Assembly (NCBI RefSeq): GCF_030036535.1
Contig: NZ_CP080388.1
Coordinates: forward strand, 1,302,001-1,366,000
Source of the DNA: Agrobacterium cucumeris
Lineage (GTDB): Bacteria > Pseudomonadota > Alphaproteobacteria > Rhizobiales > Rhizobiaceae
Length of the DNA stretch: 64,000 bases
Direction of reading: 5' to 3'
Both the position numbers and the translations under genes were made by a program. Position 1 is the first letter of the stretch. Every line of letters starts with the position of its first letter. Positions 27,677 to 38,096 of this stretch are shown here, in pieces. Below the pieces are notes generated by a model. The model did no database searches. It worked only from the letters and a program-made list of their open reading frames with translations, and had not been told where the DNA came from.

Positions 27677-28561
27677 ATGGTACGGAAAAGTCTTACGCCG
27701 CAGATCGTCGGAAACGTCATTGAATTCATCCAGACGAACGGCATCGGCAAGGGTGAGCATCTTCCTCTTCAAATGCTGGCTGACGCCTTCCGTGTCTCGC
27801 GTGCTCCCATCATGAGCGCGCTCAAGCAACTCGAGATCCAGGGCGTCGTGCGGGCGGAGCCCAATCGCGGTTATTTTCTCGCGGTCGAACCCGGCAGTCT
27901 TCAGGATATGAAATCCGCAGGTGTTGAAGACGGTGAGGGTGACGAGGCGATCTATTTCCGCATCGCCGAGGATCGCCTCGCCGGCAAGCTCGACGAGCGC
28001 ATGAGCGAAAATGAACTCATGCGGTTTTACGATCTTCCGCGCACCAAGCTTCTGAGGGTCCTTCGGCGTATTGCGGAAGAGGGCTGGATCGAGCGTCTGC
28101 CCGGCAATGGCTGGGCGTTCACGCAGGCGCTGACGTCGAAGAAGAGTTATGAGGACGGTTATGCCTTTCGCGCCGTGATCGAGCAGCAAGCCATGCTGCT
28201 GCCGAGTTTCGAGCCCAACGCGGAGGGTCTGAAGCGGGCGCGGGAGGTTCAGATGCGGTTGCGCGACGGCGGATATGAAACATGGTCGCGCGCCGAAATC
28301 TTCAAGGCCAATAACGAATTTCACGAGATGCTCGTCGCCTGCTCGCAGAATGAATTTTTCCTGGATGCGATCAGACGCATCAACCGTCTGCGCCGGCTTA
28401 TCGAATACCACATCACCATCGACCGCAGCCGCCTGCCCCGGCAGACGGAGGAACATCTGCAAATTCTCGACCTGATCGAACATGGTCGCCGGAACGAAGC
28501 CGCCGCTTTTCTCTACACCCACATCATGGGTGCCAGCCGCATCAAGTCTCCCAAGGTCTAG
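27677..28561 (+). CDS. GntR family regulator with two winged helices and an FCD domain
   Basis: Protein of 294 aa. A first GntR-like winged helix spans about residues 5-70 (LPLQMLADAFRVSRAPIMSAL), a second about 90-155 (MSENELMRFYDLPRTKLLRVLRRI plus WIERLPGNGW), then an FCD ligand domain (about 160-285) with His residues in NNEFHEMLV, TEEHLQIL and YTHIMG able to bind metal or a carboxylate. Standard FadR-type regulators have one winged helix, so the tandem is notable. The aconitase gene follows by 160 bases; control of that gene by citrate or a related acid is plausible. Confidence 0.85.
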   Translation: MVRKSLTPQIVGNVIEFIQTNGIGKGEHLPLQMLADAFRVSRAPIMSALKQLEIQGVVRAEPNRGYFLAVEPGSLQDMKSAGVEDGEGDEAIYFRIAEDRLAGKLDERMSENELMRFYDLPRTKLLRVLRRIAEEGWIERLPGNGWAFTQALTSKKSYEDGYAFRAVIEQQAMLLPSFEPNAEGLKRAREVQMRLRDGGYETWSRAEIFKANNEFHEMLVACSQNEFFLDAIRRINRLRRLIEYHITIDRSRLPRQTEEHLQILDLIEHGRRNEAAAFLYTHIMGASRIKSPKV

Positions 28562-31421: not shown

Positions 31422-32168
31422 TTAGTGTCCCGGATGCAGTGCATCGTTGAGATACATGCAGGTGAGCATGGTGAAGACATAGGCCTGAATGCCGGCCATC
31501 AGGAATTCCAGAGCCGTGATGGCGACCGTCATGAAGAGTGGCGCGATGGCGCCGATTACCCCCAGCGCATTGATGCTGGCGAGGGAGGCGACAAAACCCG
31601 CAAAGACCTTCAGGGTGATATGGCCCGCAAGCATGACCGCAAACAGGCGGACGGAATGGCTGACGGGGCGCGAAATATAGGAGATGATTTCGATCGGCAC
31701 GATGATCGGCGCCAGGATTGCCGGGATTCCAGCGGGTTTGAATAGGCCGAAAAAACCAATGCCGTGTTTGAACAGGCCATAAAGCGTGACGGTGCCGAAC
31801 ACCATCATGGCGAGGCCGAAGGTGACGATGATCTGGCTCGTTACGGTAAAGGCATAAGGGAACATGCCGATCATGTTCGCGAAGAGGATGAACATGAAAA
31901 GCGAGAACACGAAGGGGAAGAACCGCATCCCCTGTTCGCCGGCATTGTCACGCAGGGTCTTGGCAACGAACAGGTAAAGCATCTCCGCGCTCGATTGCCA
32001 GCGGCCGGGCACGAGGCGGGCCTTGCCGGTTGCCAGAAGCAGGAATGAACTGGCCAGTGTGACGGTGAGAAACATGTATGCCGAAGCATTGGTGAAGCTG
32101 AGGTCGATACCCCCGACTGTAATTTCAACGAGAGGTTTGACTTCGAATTGGTCGATGGGGCCGGCCAT
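31422..32168 (-). CDS. atpB: Orphan ATP synthase F0 subunit a
   Basis: Membrane protein of 248 aa matching F0 subunit a over its full length: [47 protein letters not shown] and the proton-channel helix [19 protein letters not shown] (listed as separate pieces). The essential Arg (aR210 of E. coli) is kept; the usual Asn four residues later is Val. No other ATP synthase genes are nearby, so it cannot be the main F0 operon. The ATG at 32168 has GAAGGA before it. A guanidine-II-like RNA element and a 40-codon leader ORF lie upstream. It may replace subunit a in an alternative F0 or act alone in ion leakage. Confidence 0.87.
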
Positions 32169-32178
32169 GACAGGTCCT

Positions 32179-32301
32179 TCAGTAAATTGCGACAATGACG
32201 GGGATGCGCCGGTGTTCGAAGTCGCGGCTGTGCCGGACGCAGGAAGACCGTGCGTGTGGTGGAAAGTCAGAAATAGGGAGGGTGTTCGGTATATCGGCCA
32301 T
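32179..32301 (-). CDS. Possible 40-codon leader ORF before atpB
   Basis: Starts at an ATG 22 bases after the last hairpin of the RNA element at 32324-32363, preceded by GGGA, and stops 10 bases before the atpB ATG. The peptide begins [13 protein letters not shown] and ends PVIVAIY. Position suggests translational coupling of atpB to the RNA element. A competing frame through a TTG at 32312 would instead extend atpB. Coding is unproven. Confidence 0.3.
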
Positions 32302-32572
32302 TCTGATCCCAAGATTGAGAGTCAGGGCCGTCCCCGGAACGTTTCAAGGCACGGGTCGTCCCGCGCGAGGGCTTTCTAGCCAAATCGGTGGCAGGTGGCA
32401 ATCGTTTTCGGGCAAACGCATCGGCGCGGGAAAACCGGACCAGATGGTTGGCGACGAGAACGAATATCAAGGCCGCTGAAATCCGCGTCACCCAGCCTGG
32501 CGAGCGTTGATTTGCACTTTGTGTGACCGTTTCTGAAATGTCCCGATAAAGCATTTGCGGAGCGTTCCACAT
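32267..32572 (-). CDS. Small one-helix membrane ORF between two RNA elements
   Basis: Open frame of 101 codons beginning 18 bases after the hairpin pair at 32591-32633, the same spacing as chaA after its own element, with a weak GAGA ribosome site. One hydrophobic helix is seen ([19 protein letters not shown], about residues 27-45). The frame runs on through the next RNA element at 32324-32363, so the true end or even coding status is uncertain. No family is recognised. Confidence 0.4.
32324..32363 (-). promoter_or_regulatory. Guanidine-II (mini-ykkC)-like RNA element C, before atpB
   Basis: Two hairpins on the minus strand: CGGG-ACGA-CCCG (32352-32363) and GGGG-ACGG-CCCT (32324-32335) with a 16-base linker. 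Tandem short GC stems with ACGR loops define the guanidine-II riboswitch. A possible promoter TTGCCA-N17-TAGAAA lies just upstream on the same strand. Confidence 0.65.
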
Positions 32573-32590
32573 CGTGAATCTCGCGATCAT

Positions 32591-32633
32591 GGGGTCGTCC
32601 CCGTTCGGTTTGAAGCGCGCGGGCCGTCCCGCG
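32591..32633 (-). promoter_or_regulatory. Guanidine-II (mini-ykkC)-like RNA element B
   Basis: Hairpins CGCGGG-ACGG-CCCGCG (32618-32633) and GGGG-ACGA-CCCC (32591-32602) with a 15-base linker, 11 bases downstream of the chaA stop and directly before the small ORF at 32572. It would act on a chaA read-through transcript or one with its own promoter. Confidence 0.7.
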
Positions 32634-32644
32634 ATGCCGTGGCC

Positions 32645-33796
32645 TCAGGCCGTAAACAACAGGAGGCCAAAGATGACGAACAGCATCAGATGCAACAGTC
32701 CCTGCGCCGCCGAGGTTCGCCTGCCCAGATAGGTCAGGGTTGTCAGCGCAACCGTCAGGGCAAACAGGATGGTTTCGGTGGGCGAAATTCCGAAGATCAC
32801 CGTTTTGCCGGTGACCAGGCCAACCGTCAGGACCGCCGGGACCGTGAGCCCGACAGTTGAAACGAATGCGCCGAGGCACAGATTGATTGCCCGTTGTGTC
32901 TCGTTGTTCAACGCGGCCTTTACGGCCGTGATTGATTCGGGTGTAAAGACGATGATCGCAATAAGAACGCCGCCAACGGCCACCGGGGCGCCAGCCTGCG
33001 CAACGCCGTAATCAATGACGATGGCAAGGTCATGTGCGAGCAGTACGATCGGCAGCATCAATCCGATCAGAAACATCGAATGAACGATGTTCTTTTTGCG
33101 GGCATGACCGTCCGTCGGATGGTCTGGAGCCTGACGCTCGACGGGTTCTGTCAGCCTGATCGACATCCGGCCCGGTGCCGGTTGCATGAAGTGGCTGCGG
33201 TAGCGGCCCATCTGGAGGGCGAGGAAACTGCCATAGACAATCACGGTCACGAGAGAGATGACGATGGCCTGGAGAGCGGTAAACGTGCCATTGCCTGCGG
33301 AGAGCGTGTTTGGCACCAGAAGCGCGACGCCGGCCAGAACCACCGTCATCGCAATGAAGGAAACGGCGCCGGGCGCATTATATTCCTGCTCGCCATAACG
33401 CATCGCGCCCGCCAGAAGGCAGATACCTGTCACGAGGTTGAGGATGATCATCATCACCGCGAATATGGAATCTCTTCCGATTGTCGGCGCTTCATTCGGC
33501 CCCAGCATCACCGCCGCAATCAGGATCACTTCGATTGCAACGATCGACAGCGTGAGAATGAGTGTTCCGTAGGGTTCACCCAGTTGATGTGCCAGCTCAT
33601 CGGCCTCTTTCACTACCCCGAAAGCCGCCATAAGGATCGTGGCGAAGAGAACGAGAAAGCACGAGATGGCAATGGTTGGCGTCATATCAGGCGAGAGCCA
33701 TGACTGGCCGGACAGCTGGAAAACGGCGACGACCAGCCAGGCCACGACGAGTTTCGGCCAGGGAGTGCGGAGAAAGGATGGAGATTTGTCAGACAT
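32645..33796 (-). CDS. chaA: Ca2+/H+ antiporter, ChaA/CaCA family
   Basis: Inner-membrane cation/proton exchanger of 383 aa with about 11 helices. The two CaCA alpha-repeat motifs are visible: LSIVAIEVILIAAVML (about residue 88) and VFTPESITAVKAALNN then QRAINLCLGAFVSTVG (about 285-320), holding the transport Glu residues. E. coli ChaA moves Ca2+, Na+ and K+ against protons at alkaline pH. A guanidine-II-like RNA element lies 18 bases before the ATG and GAGG is the ribosome site. The RNA context raises guanidinium or another monovalent cation as a substrate. Confidence 0.88.
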   Translation of the reverse strand: MSDKSPSFLRTPWPKLVVAWLVVAVFQLSGQSWLSPDMTPTIAISCFLVLFATILMAAFGVVKEADELAHQLGEPYGTLILTLSIVAIEVILIAAVMLGPNEAPTIGRDSIFAVMMIILNLVTGICLLAGAMRYGEQEYNAPGAVSFIAMTVVLAGVALLVPNTLSAGNGTFTALQAIVISLVTVIVYGSFLALQMGRYRSHFMQPAPGRMSIRLTEPVERQAPDHPTDGHARKKNIVHSMFLIGLMLPIVLLAHDLAIVIDYGVAQAGAPVAVGGVLIAIIVFTPESITAVKAALNNETQRAINLCLGAFVSTVGLTVPAVLTVGLVTGKTVIFGISPTETILFALTVALTTLTYLGRRTSAAQGLLHLMLFVIFGLLLFTA

Positions 33797-33814
33797 TGCA
33801 GGCGACCTCTATCT

Positions 33815-33856
33815 GGGGTCGTCCCCGGCAATCTGTCGCATTCGGGTCGTCCCGAA
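33815..33856 (-). promoter_or_regulatory. Guanidine-II (mini-ykkC)-like RNA element A, before chaA
   Basis: Two perfect hairpins on the minus strand, TTCGGG-ACGA-CCCGAA (33841-33856) and GGGG-ACGA-CCCC (33815-33826), joined by 14 bases. Identical stems and loops occur in known mini-ykkC RNAs. The second stem ends 18 bases before the chaA ATG, next to its GAGG ribosome site, as expected for translation control. Confidence 0.75.
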
Positions 33857-33969
33857 CGAAGCTCTGTCAAGCTGTTGATGTCAGCGATAGCATGGCAGGG
33901 TTCCTGAAAGCAATGGCGCAGTCGGGCCACCGCCTTGATGACAGGCGCCATTGGTGATAGCACGCAGTT

Positions 33970-34013
33970 GTGCAGGACGACCTGCGCCATCCGGATCAAT
34001 TGGGGACGGCCCT
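33970..34013 (+). promoter_or_regulatory. Guanidine-II (mini-ykkC)-like RNA element D, before mrpF
   Basis: Plus-strand hairpins GTGCAGG-ACGA-CCTGCGC (33970-33987, one wobble) and GGGG-ACGG-CCCT (34002-34013), linker 14 bases. Divergent from element A, 113 bases away. A 19-codon leader ORF and mrpF follow. Confidence 0.65.
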
Positions 34014-34041
34014 GTGTCTAAAGAACACGTGGAGCAAGGCC

Positions 34042-34101
34042 ATGATCTCTCATAACTGCCCCGAACAGACCGGTATTTTTTCTTCAGCACGACCCTGTTG
34101 A
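34042..34101 (+). CDS. Possible 19-codon leader ORF before mrpF
   Basis: ATG preceded by a good GGAGCAAGG ribosome site, peptide MISHNCPEQTGIFSSARPC, stop 3 bases before the first possible mrpF start. mrpF itself has a poor ribosome site, so coupling through this ORF is likely. It parallels the leader ORF before atpB. Confidence 0.4.
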   Translation: MISHNCPEQTGIFSSARPC

Positions 34102-34110
34102 GCGGTGCCG

Positions 34111-34398
34111 ATGATGTTGAGCGCCGACATTATTTACTGGTCCGCCACCCTTGCCCAGGGCATGCTTCTGCTTGCCATGGTATTCGCCGCATATCGGCTG
34201 ATCAAGGGTCCAAGGGCCCAGGATCGTGTCATGGCAATTGATACGATTTACAATATTGGAATATTGCAGGCGCTGGTGCTGGCGATCAAAACCGGAAACG
34301 CCCTGTACCTTCCCTTCATTCTGATACTCGCAATTCTCGGCTTCGTTTCGACGGTCGCACTTGCGAAGTTTCTGATGCGAGGTGAGGTGATCGAGTGA
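34111..34398 (+). CDS. mrpF: Orphan MrpF/PhaF antiporter subunit
   Basis: Small membrane protein of about 95 aa with three helices and the MrpF hallmark YRLIKGPRAQDRVMAID (about residues 29-46) and LGFVSTVALAKFLMRGEVIE at the end. MrpF is normally one of six or seven subunits of the Mrp/Pha Na+(K+)/H+ antiporter and is linked to cholate and Na+ efflux; none of the partners is nearby. Starts at GTG 34105, ATG 34111 or ATG 34114 are all possible. Placed behind a guanidine-II-like RNA element. Confidence 0.85.
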   Translation: MMLSADIIYWSATLAQGMLLLAMVFAAYRLIKGPRAQDRVMAIDTIYNIGILQALVLAIKTGNALYLPFILILAILGFVSTVALAKFLMRGEVIE

Positions 34399-34454
34399 TG
34401 CGGCATCATTTCCGGGGCGTATAACGGGTCTCGTGGAGTGTCTAAAGAACAGAA

Positions 34455-34484
34455 AAGCGCGGCCATCTTAGATTGGCCGCGCTT
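34455..34484 (-). terminator. Terminator of the yqiK operon
   Basis: Perfect 11-bp stem AAGCGCGGCCA/TGGCCGCGCTT with an 8-base loop; on the minus strand it is followed by TTCTGTTC after a T-rich arm, so it ends the flotillin operon. It may also stop mrpF transcripts from the other side. Confidence 0.8.
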
Positions 34485-34533
34485 GATATTCTTGCCGAGA
34501 CGAGTGCCGGACGGAAGGACTGCCGAGACCCTG

Positions 34534-36225
34534 TTAAGTCTCCTTGCGTGGCTGTTTTTCCGAGGTTGGCCGATCCGTGCCATTCGTGATCGAGGCTGCG
34601 AGGAGGGCCTGTGTCGGGTCCGCTCCCTTGAAACCGGCCTGTGCGAGGATTTCATCGAGAACCGGCTTCTGCGCGGTGAAGCTCAGCAGCTGGCTTGAAA
34701 GATCGCCCAGGCCATTGCCACCTTGTCCGTCGCTGCCGCCACCGAGTGCGCCGGCCAGATTTCCGGCGCTGAAGATGCGGATATCGGAAATCTTCTCGAT
34801 CGGCTTCATCGCTTCGGCCAGCGCCTCGGGGATGATGGCGATCCTTGCGCGGGCAAGTTCGAATTCGATGATGTCGCCGGAAAGCGCATTGCGGGCATCG
34901 TTTTTCGCACGCTCCGCCTGCGCCTCGGCATCACCGAGCGCGATGACGCCTTCGGCGCGGATTTTGGCGGCCTGTGCTTCGGCCTCGGCACCGATCTTGG
35001 CGGCGGCGGCGAGGTTTTCCGCAGCTTCACGTTCGGCTTCCGCCTTCACGGTGATCGCCGTCGCTTCCTGTTCGGCCGCCTTGCGAGCGTCGATCACGGC
35101 AATGCGTTTGGCACGTTCGGCGATTTCCACTTCGCGGGCGGTTGCCACCTGTTCTTCGGCGGTGATGGCGGCTGCCTTGGCTTCATCCGCCTTGGCACGT
35201 GCGGCCTGTTCCTGCTCCACCTTCTGGGCAACGGCGATTGCGGCTTCGATCCGGGCGGTTTCGGTGATCTTGCGGGCTTCCGCCTCGCGCTCGGCGATGC
35301 CACGCTCGGCCTCGATGCGGGCGGTCTCGCGGGCCTGGCGGGCTTCCGCATCCCGCTCGGCAATGCCCCGTTCGGTATCGAGCTTTGCGGTCTCCTCGTT
35401 CAAGCGGGCGGCCTGTTCGGCACGTGCGGCTTCTGCCCGTGTTTCCGCGGTCTTGTTGGCGATATCACGTTCCTGCGTCAGTTCCGCATCGCGCTGTTCG
35501 CGCTCGATGGTCAGGCGGCGCAGCACGGCTTCGCGGTCCTTGGTGGCGATTTCGACTTCGTTGTCGCGGACGATCTGGTTGCGCTCGCGTTTGCGCTCCT
35601 CGGTGATCCGCGTCAGCGCCGTCAGGCCTTCCGCATCGAAGGTGTTGTTGGGGTTGAAATGCTTGATGTCGGTCTGGTCGAGCCGCGTCAGCGACACCGA
35701 TTCCAGCTCCAGACCGTTGGACTGCAGGTCATGGGCGACGGCCGCCTGCACGGATTTGACGAATTCGGCGCGCTGTTCCTGCAGGTCGCGCAGCGACATG
35801 GTTGCGGCGACCGAGCGCAGGCCGTCGACGAACTTCGCCTCGACCAGGGATTTCAGCGCATCGGCGTCGTTTGTCCGGTCGCCAAGCGTCTGGGCAGCGA
35901 GCGCGATATTTTCGGCGTCCGGTTTTACGCGCACATAAAATTCGGCGGTGATATCGGCGCGCATGCGATCCTTGGTGATCAGCGATTCATGTTCGGATCT
36001 CTTCACTTCCAGCCGCAACGTGCTGAGCGAGACCCAGGAATAGGAGTGGAAGATCGGCAGAATGATTGCGCCGCCGTCGAGTACGACTTTTTTGCCGCCA
36101 AGGCCGGTTCTGACATAGGCCTTGTCGCGCGTCGAGCGCGTATAAAGCGATGTCATGATGATGCCGATGACGACGATCGCCGTGACGATGGCACCGGCAA
36201 TCAGGCTCAAAGAAAAGAAGTCCAT
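34534..36225 (-). CDS. yqiK: Flotillin-like SPFH protein (YqiK family)
   Basis: Membrane-anchored scaffold of 563 aa. One N-terminal helix (residues 5-28, SLIAGAIVTAIVVIGIIMTS), an SPFH/band-7 domain (about 30-215; FYVRVKPDAENIALAAQTLG), a very long Ala/Glu-rich coiled coil (about 225-450) and a Gly-rich C-terminus. Bacterial flotillins organise membrane microdomains and answer envelope stress. Downstream of yqiJ and a PspA-like gene, with 28 bases to yqiJ. Confidence 0.9.
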   Translation of the reverse strand: MDFFSLSLIAGAIVTAIVVIGIIMTSLYTRSTRDKAYVRTGLGGKKVVLDGGAIILPIFHSYSWVSLSTLRLEVKRSEHESLITKDRMRADITAEFYVRVKPDAENIALAAQTLGDRTNDADALKSLVEAKFVDGLRSVAATMSLRDLQEQRAEFVKSVQAAVAHDLQSNGLELESVSLTRLDQTDIKHFNPNNTFDAEGLTALTRITEERKRERNQIVRDNEVEIATKDREAVLRRLTIEREQRDAELTQERDIANKTAETRAEAARAEQAARLNEETAKLDTERGIAERDAEARQARETARIEAERGIAEREAEARKITETARIEAAIAVAQKVEQEQAARAKADEAKAAAITAEEQVATAREVEIAERAKRIAVIDARKAAEQEATAITVKAEAEREAAENLAAAAKIGAEAEAQAAKIRAEGVIALGDAEAQAERAKNDARNALSGDIIEFELARARIAIIPEALAEAMKPIEKISDIRIFSAGNLAGALGGGSDGQGGNGLGDLSSQLLSFTAQKPVLDEILAQAGFKGADPTQALLAASITNGTDRPTSEKQPRKET

Positions 36226-36253
36226 GGTGAATTAACCCCTGTTGTGCCCGCTA

Positions 36254-36892
36254 TTATGAATTTTTCAGATCCGGCGGTGCGGGGATGGCCTGGAAAAGCC
36301 CATCCGCCCCATCGACGATCAATACCTGCGCACCCGTATCGATCGTGTGACCGGATGCGGCCTGCGCACGCAGGAAGTGAATATTGTCATGCCGGTCCTT
36401 GACCCGCACGGTGCCGGGCTTGCCCTGATCAAGCGGCCCGATGGTGACGACGCCTGTGAGCCCCAGAAAGTCGGCCTGCTCGAGCGCGTTGGTCTCATCG
36501 CGTGGAATGACCTTTGCAACAGCAAGGCTGAGCGACCGCGTGGCCGGAATGGCCGCAGCAACCGCGCCGGTCATGGCCAGAGGGAGTGGCAAGGGCCCGA
36601 GAAGCACTGTGGAAGCGACCCCCTGAATGAAGAAACCGGTAACGGCAAAAACCGAAAGCAGAATGACCGCGAGAACAAGCAGCGGCACGCCGCCGGCGTT
36701 GAGCCAGGACATCCAGCTTCCCAGCAGCCCCGCTTCGGTATCGCCCGGCGCATGGTAGCTGAAACTGTCGTCCAGCAGTCCGGAGGCCGATACACCTACC
36801 AGGACCGAGACGAGTTCGACAATGCCGAGACCGGCGACCGTCAAGAGGGCGATCCAGAAGGGGGCTGTGCCTGGCTGGACAATGCCTTCCAT
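36254..36892 (-). CDS. yqiJ: YqiJ-like membrane protein with OB fold
   Basis: Protein of 212 aa, partner of YqiK flotillins (NfeD-like). Three membrane helices (FWIALLTVAGLGIVELVSVL; VPLLVLAVILLSVFAVTGFF; LPLPLAMTGAVAAAIP) precede a C-terminal OB-type beta domain (about 145-205, GLTGVVTIGPLDQGKPGTV and AQVLIVDG). The start overlaps the PspA stop by one base (TGATG), so pspA-yqiJ-yqiK form one operon, as in enterobacteria. Confidence 0.87.
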   Translation of the reverse strand: MEGIVQPGTAPFWIALLTVAGLGIVELVSVLVGVSASGLLDDSFSYHAPGDTEAGLLGSWMSWLNAGGVPLLVLAVILLSVFAVTGFFIQGVASTVLLGPLPLPLAMTGAVAAAIPATRSLSLAVAKVIPRDETNALEQADFLGLTGVVTIGPLDQGKPGTVRVKDRHDNIHFLRAQAASGHTIDTGAQVLIVDGADGLFQAIPAPPDLKNS

Positions 36893-37539
36893 CAGCGTTC
36901 GCCCTCCCGGAAAGCCTTGAGCCGCGCTTCGATGGCGCTCTGTCGCTGCATGCGGCCCAGCTCCTCCACCTCGGCTGCGCCGGTATTGGGCTTGGCCGGT
37001 GTGCCGGTCACCCTTTCGATCGCTTCCAGCGCCTCGGCCAGACGGCGGTCATTGCGCTGGGACGGGGTGGCGTCCACGCTGGCAGGTGCGGCGCGTTCGG
37101 CACGCTTGGCATCTTCGAGCCGCTTTTGCGCATCCGCCTTTGCAGAGGCGATGCTGCGCAAGGTGGTTTCCGCCTCGGCAATTTCGGCGGCATTCTCGAG
37201 GATCGCCTTGTTCAGCGCTTCGCGCTGCGCCTCCAGATCGATCTGCAGCCCGGTTGCGGCCCGTGCCAGATCTTCACGGCCGTTTTCCAGCCCGATCCTG
37301 ATCTTGTCGTCGAGGTCGCTGATTTCTTCATCGAGATCGGCGGCCTTCGATTTGAGGCGATGGCCGGCGGCAACCGCCACGCCCAGGGCCGTTCGCGCTT
37401 CCTCGGCGATCTTGGCAATTTCCCGCACGGCCTGTTGTGCAACGGCGACCGGATTGGACGCCTCGGCCGCGTCGACGGCATTGTTCATGACACCGGCGAT
37501 GACACGCCCGAGCCGCCCGAGAATACCTTCATTGTTCAT
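36892..37539 (-). CDS. PspA/IM30-like protein
   Basis: Coiled-coil protein of 215 aa of the PspA/YjfJ family, which bind and stabilise the inner membrane. It begins MNNEGILGRLGRVIAGVMNN and continues as a long helix rich in Glu/Lys/Ala (about 40-150). The ATG at 37539 is preceded by a perfect GGAGG 6 bases upstream, so PspA on its own is likely made from here. The same frame is open for another 155 codons upstream with a TnpB-like segment, so a longer fusion form is also possible. First part of the pspA-yqiJ-yqiK operon. Confidence 0.83.
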   Translation of the reverse strand: MNNEGILGRLGRVIAGVMNNAVDAAEASNPVAVAQQAVREIAKIAEEARTALGVAVAAGHRLKSKAADLDEEISDLDDKIRIGLENGREDLARAATGLQIDLEAQREALNKAILENAAEIAEAETTLRSIASAKADAQKRLEDAKRAERAAPASVDATPSQRNDRRLAEALEAIERVTGTPAKPNTGAAEVEELGRMQRQSAIEARLKAFREGER

Positions 37540-38004
37540 CGAAGCCTCCCTGTTCGGTTGGAAGCCGGTTTTTATGCCGGCATGGATGCTGATGGTTTCG
37601 CCCTCGAAAACGAGGCGCGCTTCTGAAAAGTCATTCCAGCCGTCGTGATAACCACGCACGGTGTAGGGCACGACGACGCGGCCCGAGAGGGTGGCGATGC
37701 TGAGGCTGTCAGGACCCTTTACCGAAAACAGCTTGCTGTCGAGCGGGATGTCGCGCACCGGCTCCTGCGGATCACGCTGGCTATGGTCGCGCAAAGCCAG
37801 CGTCACCATGCGGGATGGGAGGCCTGTCTTGACCCTGATTTCCTCGTAAGCTGCGGCATGCAGCGCCACGAGGTTGGCGCCTTCGGTCTGATCGAGGATT
37901 GCCATCGCACGTCGATAGGCAAGCAGCGTTTCTTCAAGGGAAGATCGATCTTCCCTTGAAAGATTGAGTACCAGAACGACGTTGGACAGAAGTTTCGTGC
38001 TCAT
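37540..38004 (-). pseudogene. TnpB N-terminal-like segment in frame with PspA
   Basis: Starting at ATG 38004, 155 codons read without stop into the PspA gene. The pattern matches the wedge/REC part of one branch of IS200/IS605 TnpB proteins: LEETLLAYRRAMAILDQ, then LHAAAYEEIRVKTGLPSRM, then LSIATLSGRVVVPYTVRGY and SEARLVFEG. The RuvC nuclease domain and zinc ribbon are missing and no IS ends are recognised. It is either a truncated TnpB remnant that lost its stop or an exapted domain fused to PspA. The segment also holds the palindrome at 37933-37960. Confidence 0.55.
37933..37960. repeat. 28-bp perfect palindrome
   Basis: Each arm is TTCAAGGGAAGATC or its complement with no spacer, lying in the codons for LSREDRSSLEE of the TnpB-like segment. 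A perfect 28-bp palindrome inside coding DNA is very unlikely by chance. Confidence 0.9.
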
Positions 38005-38015
38005 GTGAAATACAT

Positions 38016-38036
38016 AAAGCACTCCATTGGTGCTTT
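38016..38036. promoter_or_regulatory. Dyad before the TnpB-like/PspA frame
   Basis: AAAGCAC-N7-GTGCTTT, a perfect 7-bp inverted repeat ending 12 bases before the ATG at 38004. It could be an operator or an RNA hairpin masking the start. Confidence 0.4.
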
Positions 38037-38096
38037 CAAGGGGCGGCGCCAGTTTTTTCAACTCTGCATAAGCTGATTTCCCGCTTCAGATGTAAT

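Follow-up and report, generated by a model that had tools for sequence, protein, structure and literature searches.

Riboswitches of the guanidine-II class (Rfam RF01068, mini-ykkC) are known to precede efflux and guanidine-breakdown genes, and the class is viewed as a translational ON switch (PMC12186494). In a 64,000-nucleotide stretch of the Agrobacterium cucumeris genome (NZ_CP080388.1, positions 1,302,001 to 1,366,000, hereafter the window), four elements of this class stand before genes of other kinds: a ChaA-like cation/proton antiporter, a small one-helix open reading frame (ORF), an orphan subunit a of the F0 sector of ATP synthase (F0-a) and an orphan mrpF. To our knowledge, what guanidine harms in bacteria is unsettled. 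We describe these elements, their recurrence in relatives, and a guanidine-linked clade of F0-a paralogues with its own residue signature, which we consider a larger finding than the elements themselves.

The four elements, named A to D, matched the RF01068 covariance model (gathering score, 32 bits) as follows:

33814-33858, minus strand: guanidine-II riboswitch A, leader of the ChaA-like gene, 40.3 bits
32590-32633, minus strand: guanidine-II riboswitch B, 11 bases 3' of the chaA stop and before the small ORF, 36.2 bits
32323-32367, minus strand: guanidine-II riboswitch C, leader of the orphan F0 subunit a gene, 37.4 bits
33971-34014, plus strand: guanidine-II riboswitch D, leader of the orphan mrpF gene, 31.8 bits

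An original prediction, made from the letters of the window alone, had proposed hairpins of mini-ykkC/guanidine-II design at these places, and its positions agree with the RF01068 matches to within 0-4 bases. A, C and B reach the cut-off, and D, found by a laxer search, lies 0.2 bits under it. Each element has two hairpins with ACGR in both loops; the linkers, earlier put at 14-16 bases, were roughly right in length but span ~12-16 bases depending on the chosen P1 end. The genes that follow are those that had been named, with matches to Na_Ca_ex (ChaA-like), ATP-synt_A and MrpF_PhaF, and with no match for the small ORF in the family searches. Within the cluster, the known guanidine genes (gdx, carboxylase) are not preceded by A-D. 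In the genome carrying the window (5.7 Mb), RF01068 matches at E ≤ 0.001 number five, and these 1.7 kb account for four. We are highly confident that A-D are guanidine-II riboswitches acting as ON switches.

The gene context had also led to Na+ or Li+ riboswitches being offered as alternatives. The covariance search of the cluster returned guanidine-II matches and no ion riboswitch: no riboswitch family other than RF01068 matched at the gathering score in the window, or up to an E-value of 5 in 31800-34500. For want of an Rfam match over these ranges, Na+, Li+ or other ion riboswitches were rejected as the class of these RNAs, and because the search gives guanidine-II and no ion riboswitch, the dedicated guanidinium regulon that had been suggested is well supported. 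A ligand other than guanidinium, be it a small cation (Na+, Li+, Ca2+) or some other guanidino compound, nevertheless has some arguments behind it, namely the cation antiporter context, the comparable binding of guanidine, methylguanidine and aminoguanidine by this class (PMC12335538) and the control of some Na+-driven ATP synthase genes by Na+-I riboswitches (PMC9971707). The RF01068 matches, with no other riboswitch family over the ranges just given, the ACGR loops of all four elements and the presence of the same F0-a gene next to gdx elsewhere make such a ligand very unlikely in our judgment. Guanidinium would then be the ligand of A-D, and a coupling of export to proton flow, also raised earlier, is plausible.

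At least one RF01068 match was present in all 39 genomes of the genus that were searched (five matches in 8 genomes, four in 1, three in 1, two in 9 and one in 20). The eight five-match genomes are that of the window and seven others, and four of the five matches lie in the same chaA-like/small ORF/F0-a/mrpF cluster; mrpF was not found in the cluster of G019. Smaller versions occur in G014 (chaA-like and F0-a only) and in G007 and G043 (F0-a only). Counterparts of A are also present in relatives, and those of D scored 33.7-38.2 bits in six genus genomes (G005, G015, G042, G047, G048, G050) and 31.7 bits in G049. Covariation of the stems, a check proposed together with the original prediction, was far above that of shuffled alignments: 65 two-sided changes compared with 18.7 ± 3.5, at six pairs of stem 1 and one pair of stem 2, with 92.1% of cells pairing in a 45-sequence alignment whose rows were all picked by RF01068, a choice that favours pairing. 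The genome-wide count, the recurrence in relatives and the covariation together rule out hairpins formed by chance. Across the family, a guanidine-II element was found in 185 of 394 genomes.

Minimum-energy folds of A, C and D have P1 formed and P2 opened, with the 3' half of P2 paired to a start region: CGACC with GGUCG of the chaA start region in A, CGGCC with GGCCG at the start of a 40-amino-acid upstream ORF in C, and P2 with the start region of a 19-amino-acid upstream ORF in D. A partition-function test covered 111 distinct elements, each with a start site that could be recognised at most 45 bases away, near relatives included and B left out; the P2 3' strand was paired downstream with a mean probability of 0.60, compared with 0.30 when the downstream bases were shuffled (Wilcoxon P ~1e-12), and with values of 0.81, 1.00 and 0.97 for A, C and D. 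Since guanidinium would hold P2 closed, translation is predicted to be switched on, and the modelled folds of A, C and D agree with the published view of the class.

The gene behind C encodes a second subunit a:

31422..32168, minus strand: orphan F0 subunit a (AtpB paralogue), 248 amino acids, Pfam ATP-synt_A 5.1e-63, with H171, R174 and V178

It stands outside the atp operon, and a canonical atpB, 63% identical to it, is found elsewhere in the genome beside atp genes (by eye). From its sequence the orphan appears to be an AtpB paralogue with a putative role in F0. Among the 394 family genomes, 385 had an atpB match and at least 50 a paralogue of the window's kind (49 full-length, one broken), a lower bound in a survey that used the start and the score of the alignment to tell the two kinds apart. 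All 49 listed paralogue genomes carry one or more additional atpB matches. In a phylogenetic tree, 58 paralogue and 21 canonical rows fell on opposite sides of one branch with support of 100/100, identical sequences, the broken copy (L149) and L101 (the same locus as L036) having been left out. The paralogue gene is lost in places: L149 has a broken copy behind its element, and L096 an F0-a remnant before a riboswitch-gdx pair.

The link between this clade and the riboswitch extends well beyond the genus. An upstream guanidine-II element in the orientation of the gene was found in 45 of the 48 paralogue loci fetched from outside it (L102-L149): 28/28 and 15/20 at the gathering score, together with L134 and L135 when searched with R2, an RNA model built in this analysis from elements of the fetched loci. 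Guanidine-II control of canonical atpB was ruled out by 20 canonical loci, all of them without a match at E-values up to 0.5. When eight aligned paralogues were used to scan GTDB species genomes, 206 loci came up, the best 80 of which form a named set; 69 of them have Val and 11 have Asn four residues after the catalytic Arg. With R2, an element was found upstream of 68 of the 69 Val-type loci and of none of the 11 Asn-type loci. Because R2 was built from partly recurring loci, 68/69 is not an independent count: 36 of the 69 had already been fetched, 31 of these among the 48, and the non-overlapping Val-type loci carry an element in 32 of 33 cases. A second tree including the named genomes reproduced the split, with 47 Val-type and 19 Asn-type rows (SH-aLRT 98); for it, 22 Val-type rows among the named 80 had been removed by hand to thin near relatives. 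Named carriers belong to Agrobacterium, Rhizobium, Shinella, Ensifer, Phyllobacterium, Mesorhizobium, Aminobacter, Nitratireductor, Pseudaminobacter, Kaistia and Afipia, to several Brucella species, which we take to be those of the former Ochrobactrum group, and to metagenome-assembled genomes (MAGs) of Devosia and Reyranella. The association of Val with the riboswitch has thus been kept through much divergence, in several families.

The neighbours of the Val-type genes offer a hint as to export. In the named set gdx, an SMR gene, is the downstream neighbour in 23 of 69 loci and a ChaA-like gene the upstream neighbour in 10 of 69, and in none do the 3-kb flanks contain both. Among the family loci L100-L149, gdx stands beside F0-a in 10 of 50, and several loci have one element for F0-a and a separate one for gdx. 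The one SMR gene of the window's genome is far from all five elements. The presence of the ChaA-like gene where gdx is missing suggests, on gene order, that its product may be a guanidinium exporter.

Paralogous and canonical subunits share the working residues that were checked (Arg174, Glu160, Ser163, His183, Glu221 and Gln228, kept in 58/58 paralogues and 21/21 canonical proteins). They differ at residue 178, corresponding to E. coli position 214, which is Val in all 58 paralogues vs Asn in all 21 canonical proteins, and at residue 171, which is His vs Leu in the same sets. Since the Asn-type proteins of L248 and L249 have His171 and no element, Val178 is the better marker. Residues were matched to the E. 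coli channel around aR210 by spacing, with the Arg region also aligned to Paracoccus, and the E. coli numbering there is in part our assumption. In E. coli, aN214 belongs to the input channel and neighbours aR210 and aQ252, water bound at this site protonates the c-ring carboxylate, and the substitution aN214L shifts the pKa of both half-channels (PMC9447477). The half-channels of ATP synthase seem not to exclude Ag+ (PMC6377231).

The conservation of these residues bears on two further explanations. Leftover riboswitches before genes that no longer matter, or hairpins of chance origin, can be given hardly any weight: the broken and remnant F0-a copies of L149 and L096 would fit decay, but the E-values, recurrence, covariation and strong residue conservation speak against it, and the chance half is excluded. 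It is also quite improbable that the F0-a paralogue, MrpF and the small ORF work outside F0 and Mrp, as a separate guanidinium channel or antiporter. The compact cluster, in which the orphans have no other recognised F0 or Mrp genes alongside, could be read in that way, but the F0 working residues checked are retained in 58/58 paralogues, Asn214 excepted, and mrpF occurs in the flanks of only 5 of the 69 Val-type loci.

As a whole, the explanation that we slightly favour combines guanidine-II switches, exporters and a spare, guanidinium-tolerant subunit a. A-D would act at translation initiation, one before each of the four genes. Without ligand, the 3' half of P2 (RCCC) would pair with the next start, that of chaA for A and those of the upstream ORFs for C and D, and guanidinium would stabilise the P2 hairpin and free the start region. 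The set so induced would comprise the ChaA-like antiporter, the one-helix protein, the MrpF paralogue and the spare subunit a. The ChaA-like protein, encoded beside F0-a where gdx stands in other genera, would serve as a guanidinium/H+ exporter; the spare subunit a would join the normal c-ring, b subunits and F1, and a synthase containing it would go on turning as guanidinium comes in. The free ion is similar to the guanidinium group on the catalytic Arg and could lodge in the input half-channel, where it might compete for the c-ring carboxylate or occupy the Asn site, and Val in place of the polar Asn beside the catalytic Arg would hinder such lodging. The paralogue presumably assembles into F0, and there are hints that guanidine interferes with the F0 turbine; the tolerance of the spare subunit to guanidinium itself we would put just short of an even call. 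A fuller version, in which guanidine remodels the ATP synthase, the Val-clade subunit replacing the normal one in F1F0 at rising guanidinium because the ion blocks the normal turbine, with MrpF as a parallel spare for Mrp/Pha and the ChaA-like protein as a guanidinium/H+ antiporter, is advanced tentatively, as possible rather than probable.

A close rival of the tolerance reading is that the spare subunit a joins F0 but serves the proton economy, through an altered pH dependence or a leak that sustains proton-coupled export. Proton- or cation-transport families account for three of the four genes, Gdx brings in two protons for each guanidinium (PMC12186494), and the shift of both half-channel pKa values by aN214L (PMC9447477) would suit such a role; by itself, however, this account leaves unexplained why the link is to guanidine and not to pH or salt, and we regard it as unlikely, if deserving of serious attention.

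Several results also weigh against guanidinium tolerance and the switch mechanism that would serve it. No element was found with RF01068 or R2 upstream of the paralogues in L136, L140 and L141, or upstream of the gene in L185 (Shinella daejeonensis), the sole Val-type exception in the named set. As all Val-type proteins fall in one clade, Val with the riboswitch is one inherited association and counts once in evolution. Most family genomes with guanidine-II are not among the carriers of the paralogue (185/394 vs at least 50/394). Glycine or hydrophobic residues are natural at position 214 in a few species (PMC9447477), and those with hydrophobic residues have no known guanidine link, so Asn214 is not strictly defining for AtpB. 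The fixed differences appeared concentrated round the channel when compared with all positions (P = 0.019) but not given conservation (P = 0.25), and such a concentration was rejected as not significant against conserved positions. As to the switch, B, which was outside the partition-function test, folds with P2 intact and no clear start masking, and the probability of a closed P2 hairpin did not differ from the control (0.22 vs 0.24). Simple complementarity of start region and P2 was weak in a run-length test (3.91 vs 3.73 bases, t = 1.9, n = 116) and was dropped as a general rule.

The remaining features of the cluster are the following:

32645..33796, minus strand: ChaA-like (CaCA) cation/proton antiporter gene, 383 amino acids, Pfam Na_Ca_ex 7.1e-20
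32267..32572, minus strand: small one-helix ORF, start ATGTGG, ATGATGTGG in relatives
32373..32401, minus strand: promoter-like TTGCCA-17-TAGAAA just 5' of riboswitch C, seen by eye in the alignment and kept in relatives
32179..32301, minus strand: upstream ORF of 40 amino acids between C and the F0-a gene, its stop TGA overlapping the F0-a ribosome-binding region
33935..33963, plus strand: promoter-like TTGATG-17-TAGCAC just 5' of riboswitch D, seen by eye in the alignment and kept in relatives
34042..34101, plus strand: upstream ORF of 19 amino acids between D and mrpF, with 3 bases from its end to the start of mrpF
34105..34398, plus strand: orphan mrpF/phaF gene, 97 amino acids, GTG start (ATG at 34111 possible), Pfam MrpF_PhaF 3.3e-16

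Element A is 17 bases from the ChaA-like gene, whose product falls below the NCBIfam cut-offs of the ChaA and CaCA2 models (190.8 vs 505 and 184.5 vs 317.45 bits) and is therefore named ChaA-like only. The position of B between the chaA stop and the small ORF implies that it is probably carried on the chaA transcript. The small ORF looks coding from its pattern of change, as third codon positions changed in excess (762 vs 478 and 428) and nine aligned sequences are free of gaps from the start to element C; in L057 it ends after 55 amino acids, and approximately the first 55 residues look like its conserved core. The hexamer pairs before C and D are placed for transcription to start at about the first bases of each element. 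A consensus promoter scan returned four sites, none at these by-eye hexamers, and no clear promoter was seen for A by eye in the sequence and alignments.

The 40-amino-acid ORF is open in 9/9 aligned main-clade genomes, and given its weak codon-position pattern (223, 176, 256) we treat it as a leader ORF, not a proven protein. The 19-amino-acid ORF is of equal length in five relatives and absent from L056, L057 and L188 (by eye). Many upstream ORFs in other genera end close to the F0-a start, a suggestive pattern that has no chance control. In a Devosia MAG, the element and the F0-a gene are separated by an ORF of 58 amino acids whose product resembles a membrane protein with two helices (L238:2794-2971, approximate).

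The cluster mrpF stands outside any mrp operon, and the two other mrpF genes of the genome adjoin other mrp genes (by eye). Its product matches the NCBIfam model of K+/H+ antiporter subunit F (106 bits, cut-off 93) and resembles the PhaF-type copy of the genome. Beside a TGN motif, nine orphan MrpF proteins have Pro where the two operon copies have Glu or Asp; with only two canonical copies for comparison, Pro is not callable as a signature. Between mrpF and a flotillin-like gene, a strong stem followed by T-rich sequence (34455-34484, minus strand) is a likely terminator. Adjoining the cluster, at 34534-38061, flotillin-like, YqiJ-like and weakly PspA/IM30-like (below the Pfam cut-off) genes follow in a row and are perhaps a membrane-stress set. 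Further away, at 27677-28561, a GntR/FCD regulator has two GntR stretches (Pfam) and winged-helix matches near residue 110 and at the N-terminus, suggesting two DNA-binding domains.

Outside the cluster, the fifth RF01068 match of the window's genome stands before a gene of the PACE family (BTP, chlorhexidine efflux), the family name having been established for this locus, L003:1501-2001 (C1:1373606). PACE-family genes directly follow guanidine-II in many genomes (also L039, L040, L043 and L046-L048), and further loci of this kind are L051-L054, L064-L070, L085, L089 and L097. Since chlorhexidine is a bisbiguanide, guanidinium or a guanidino compound may be a natural PACE substrate. A UAAP1/DUF1989-like gene, which we take to be a known guanidine-breakdown context, follows guanidine-II in L041, L042, L049, L050 and L061-L063 (family tested in L041, the others by eye).

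Compared with the guanidine-II class as described, the elements agree in their two GC hairpins, the ACGA/ACGG loops, the covariation of the stems and a predicted translational ON switch; here four of them share 1.7 kb, with both strands used and an element in front of each gene, and ChaA-like, small ORF, F0-a and mrpF genes take the place of gdx or guanidine carboxylase. The RNA class is thus known, and a regulon of ChaA-like, F0-a and mrpF genes was not found in print within the open-access literature searched; nor was a guanidine riboswitch before ATP synthase subunit a, chaA or mrpF, in a search in which mrp was not targeted and which did not cover the original mini-ykkC gene tables. The term 'ATP synthase' has 0 occurrences in the main text of the gdx/guanidine review (PMC12186494). 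Riboswitch-controlled gdx is likewise a proton-coupled export gene under guanidine-II (PMC12186494) and adjoins the F0-a paralogue in the 23 relatives counted above, whereas the sole SMR gene of the window's genome is not near any element. Na+-I riboswitches are a precedent for riboswitch control of ATP synthase genes, with another ligand and RNA class, and with whole Na+-driven synthases (PMC9971707) where a lone second subunit a is found here. The orphan belongs to the same family as F1F0 subunit a (AtpB) and keeps its catalytic Arg and the other channel residues checked, but it is a second copy outside the atp operon, in a separate clade, with Val at 214 and a guanidine-II leader.

Some enzymes that fluoride inhibits, enolase and pyrophosphatase for example, are members of fluoride riboswitch regulons. 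A guanidine-linked second subunit a, retained across Hyphomicrobiales and altered at the proton input site, points in a similar way to the F0 turbine as a guanidine target, which the paralogue makes directly testable. If this is true, the riboswitch would alter the make-up of the ATP synthase and not merely its amount, and the guanidine regulon would be extended from export and breakdown to target protection. The logic would be that of the fluoride regulons, a toxic ion switching on an exporter and a copy of its likely target, with a different ligand, RNA and target, and with a copy that here differs beside the catalytic residue.

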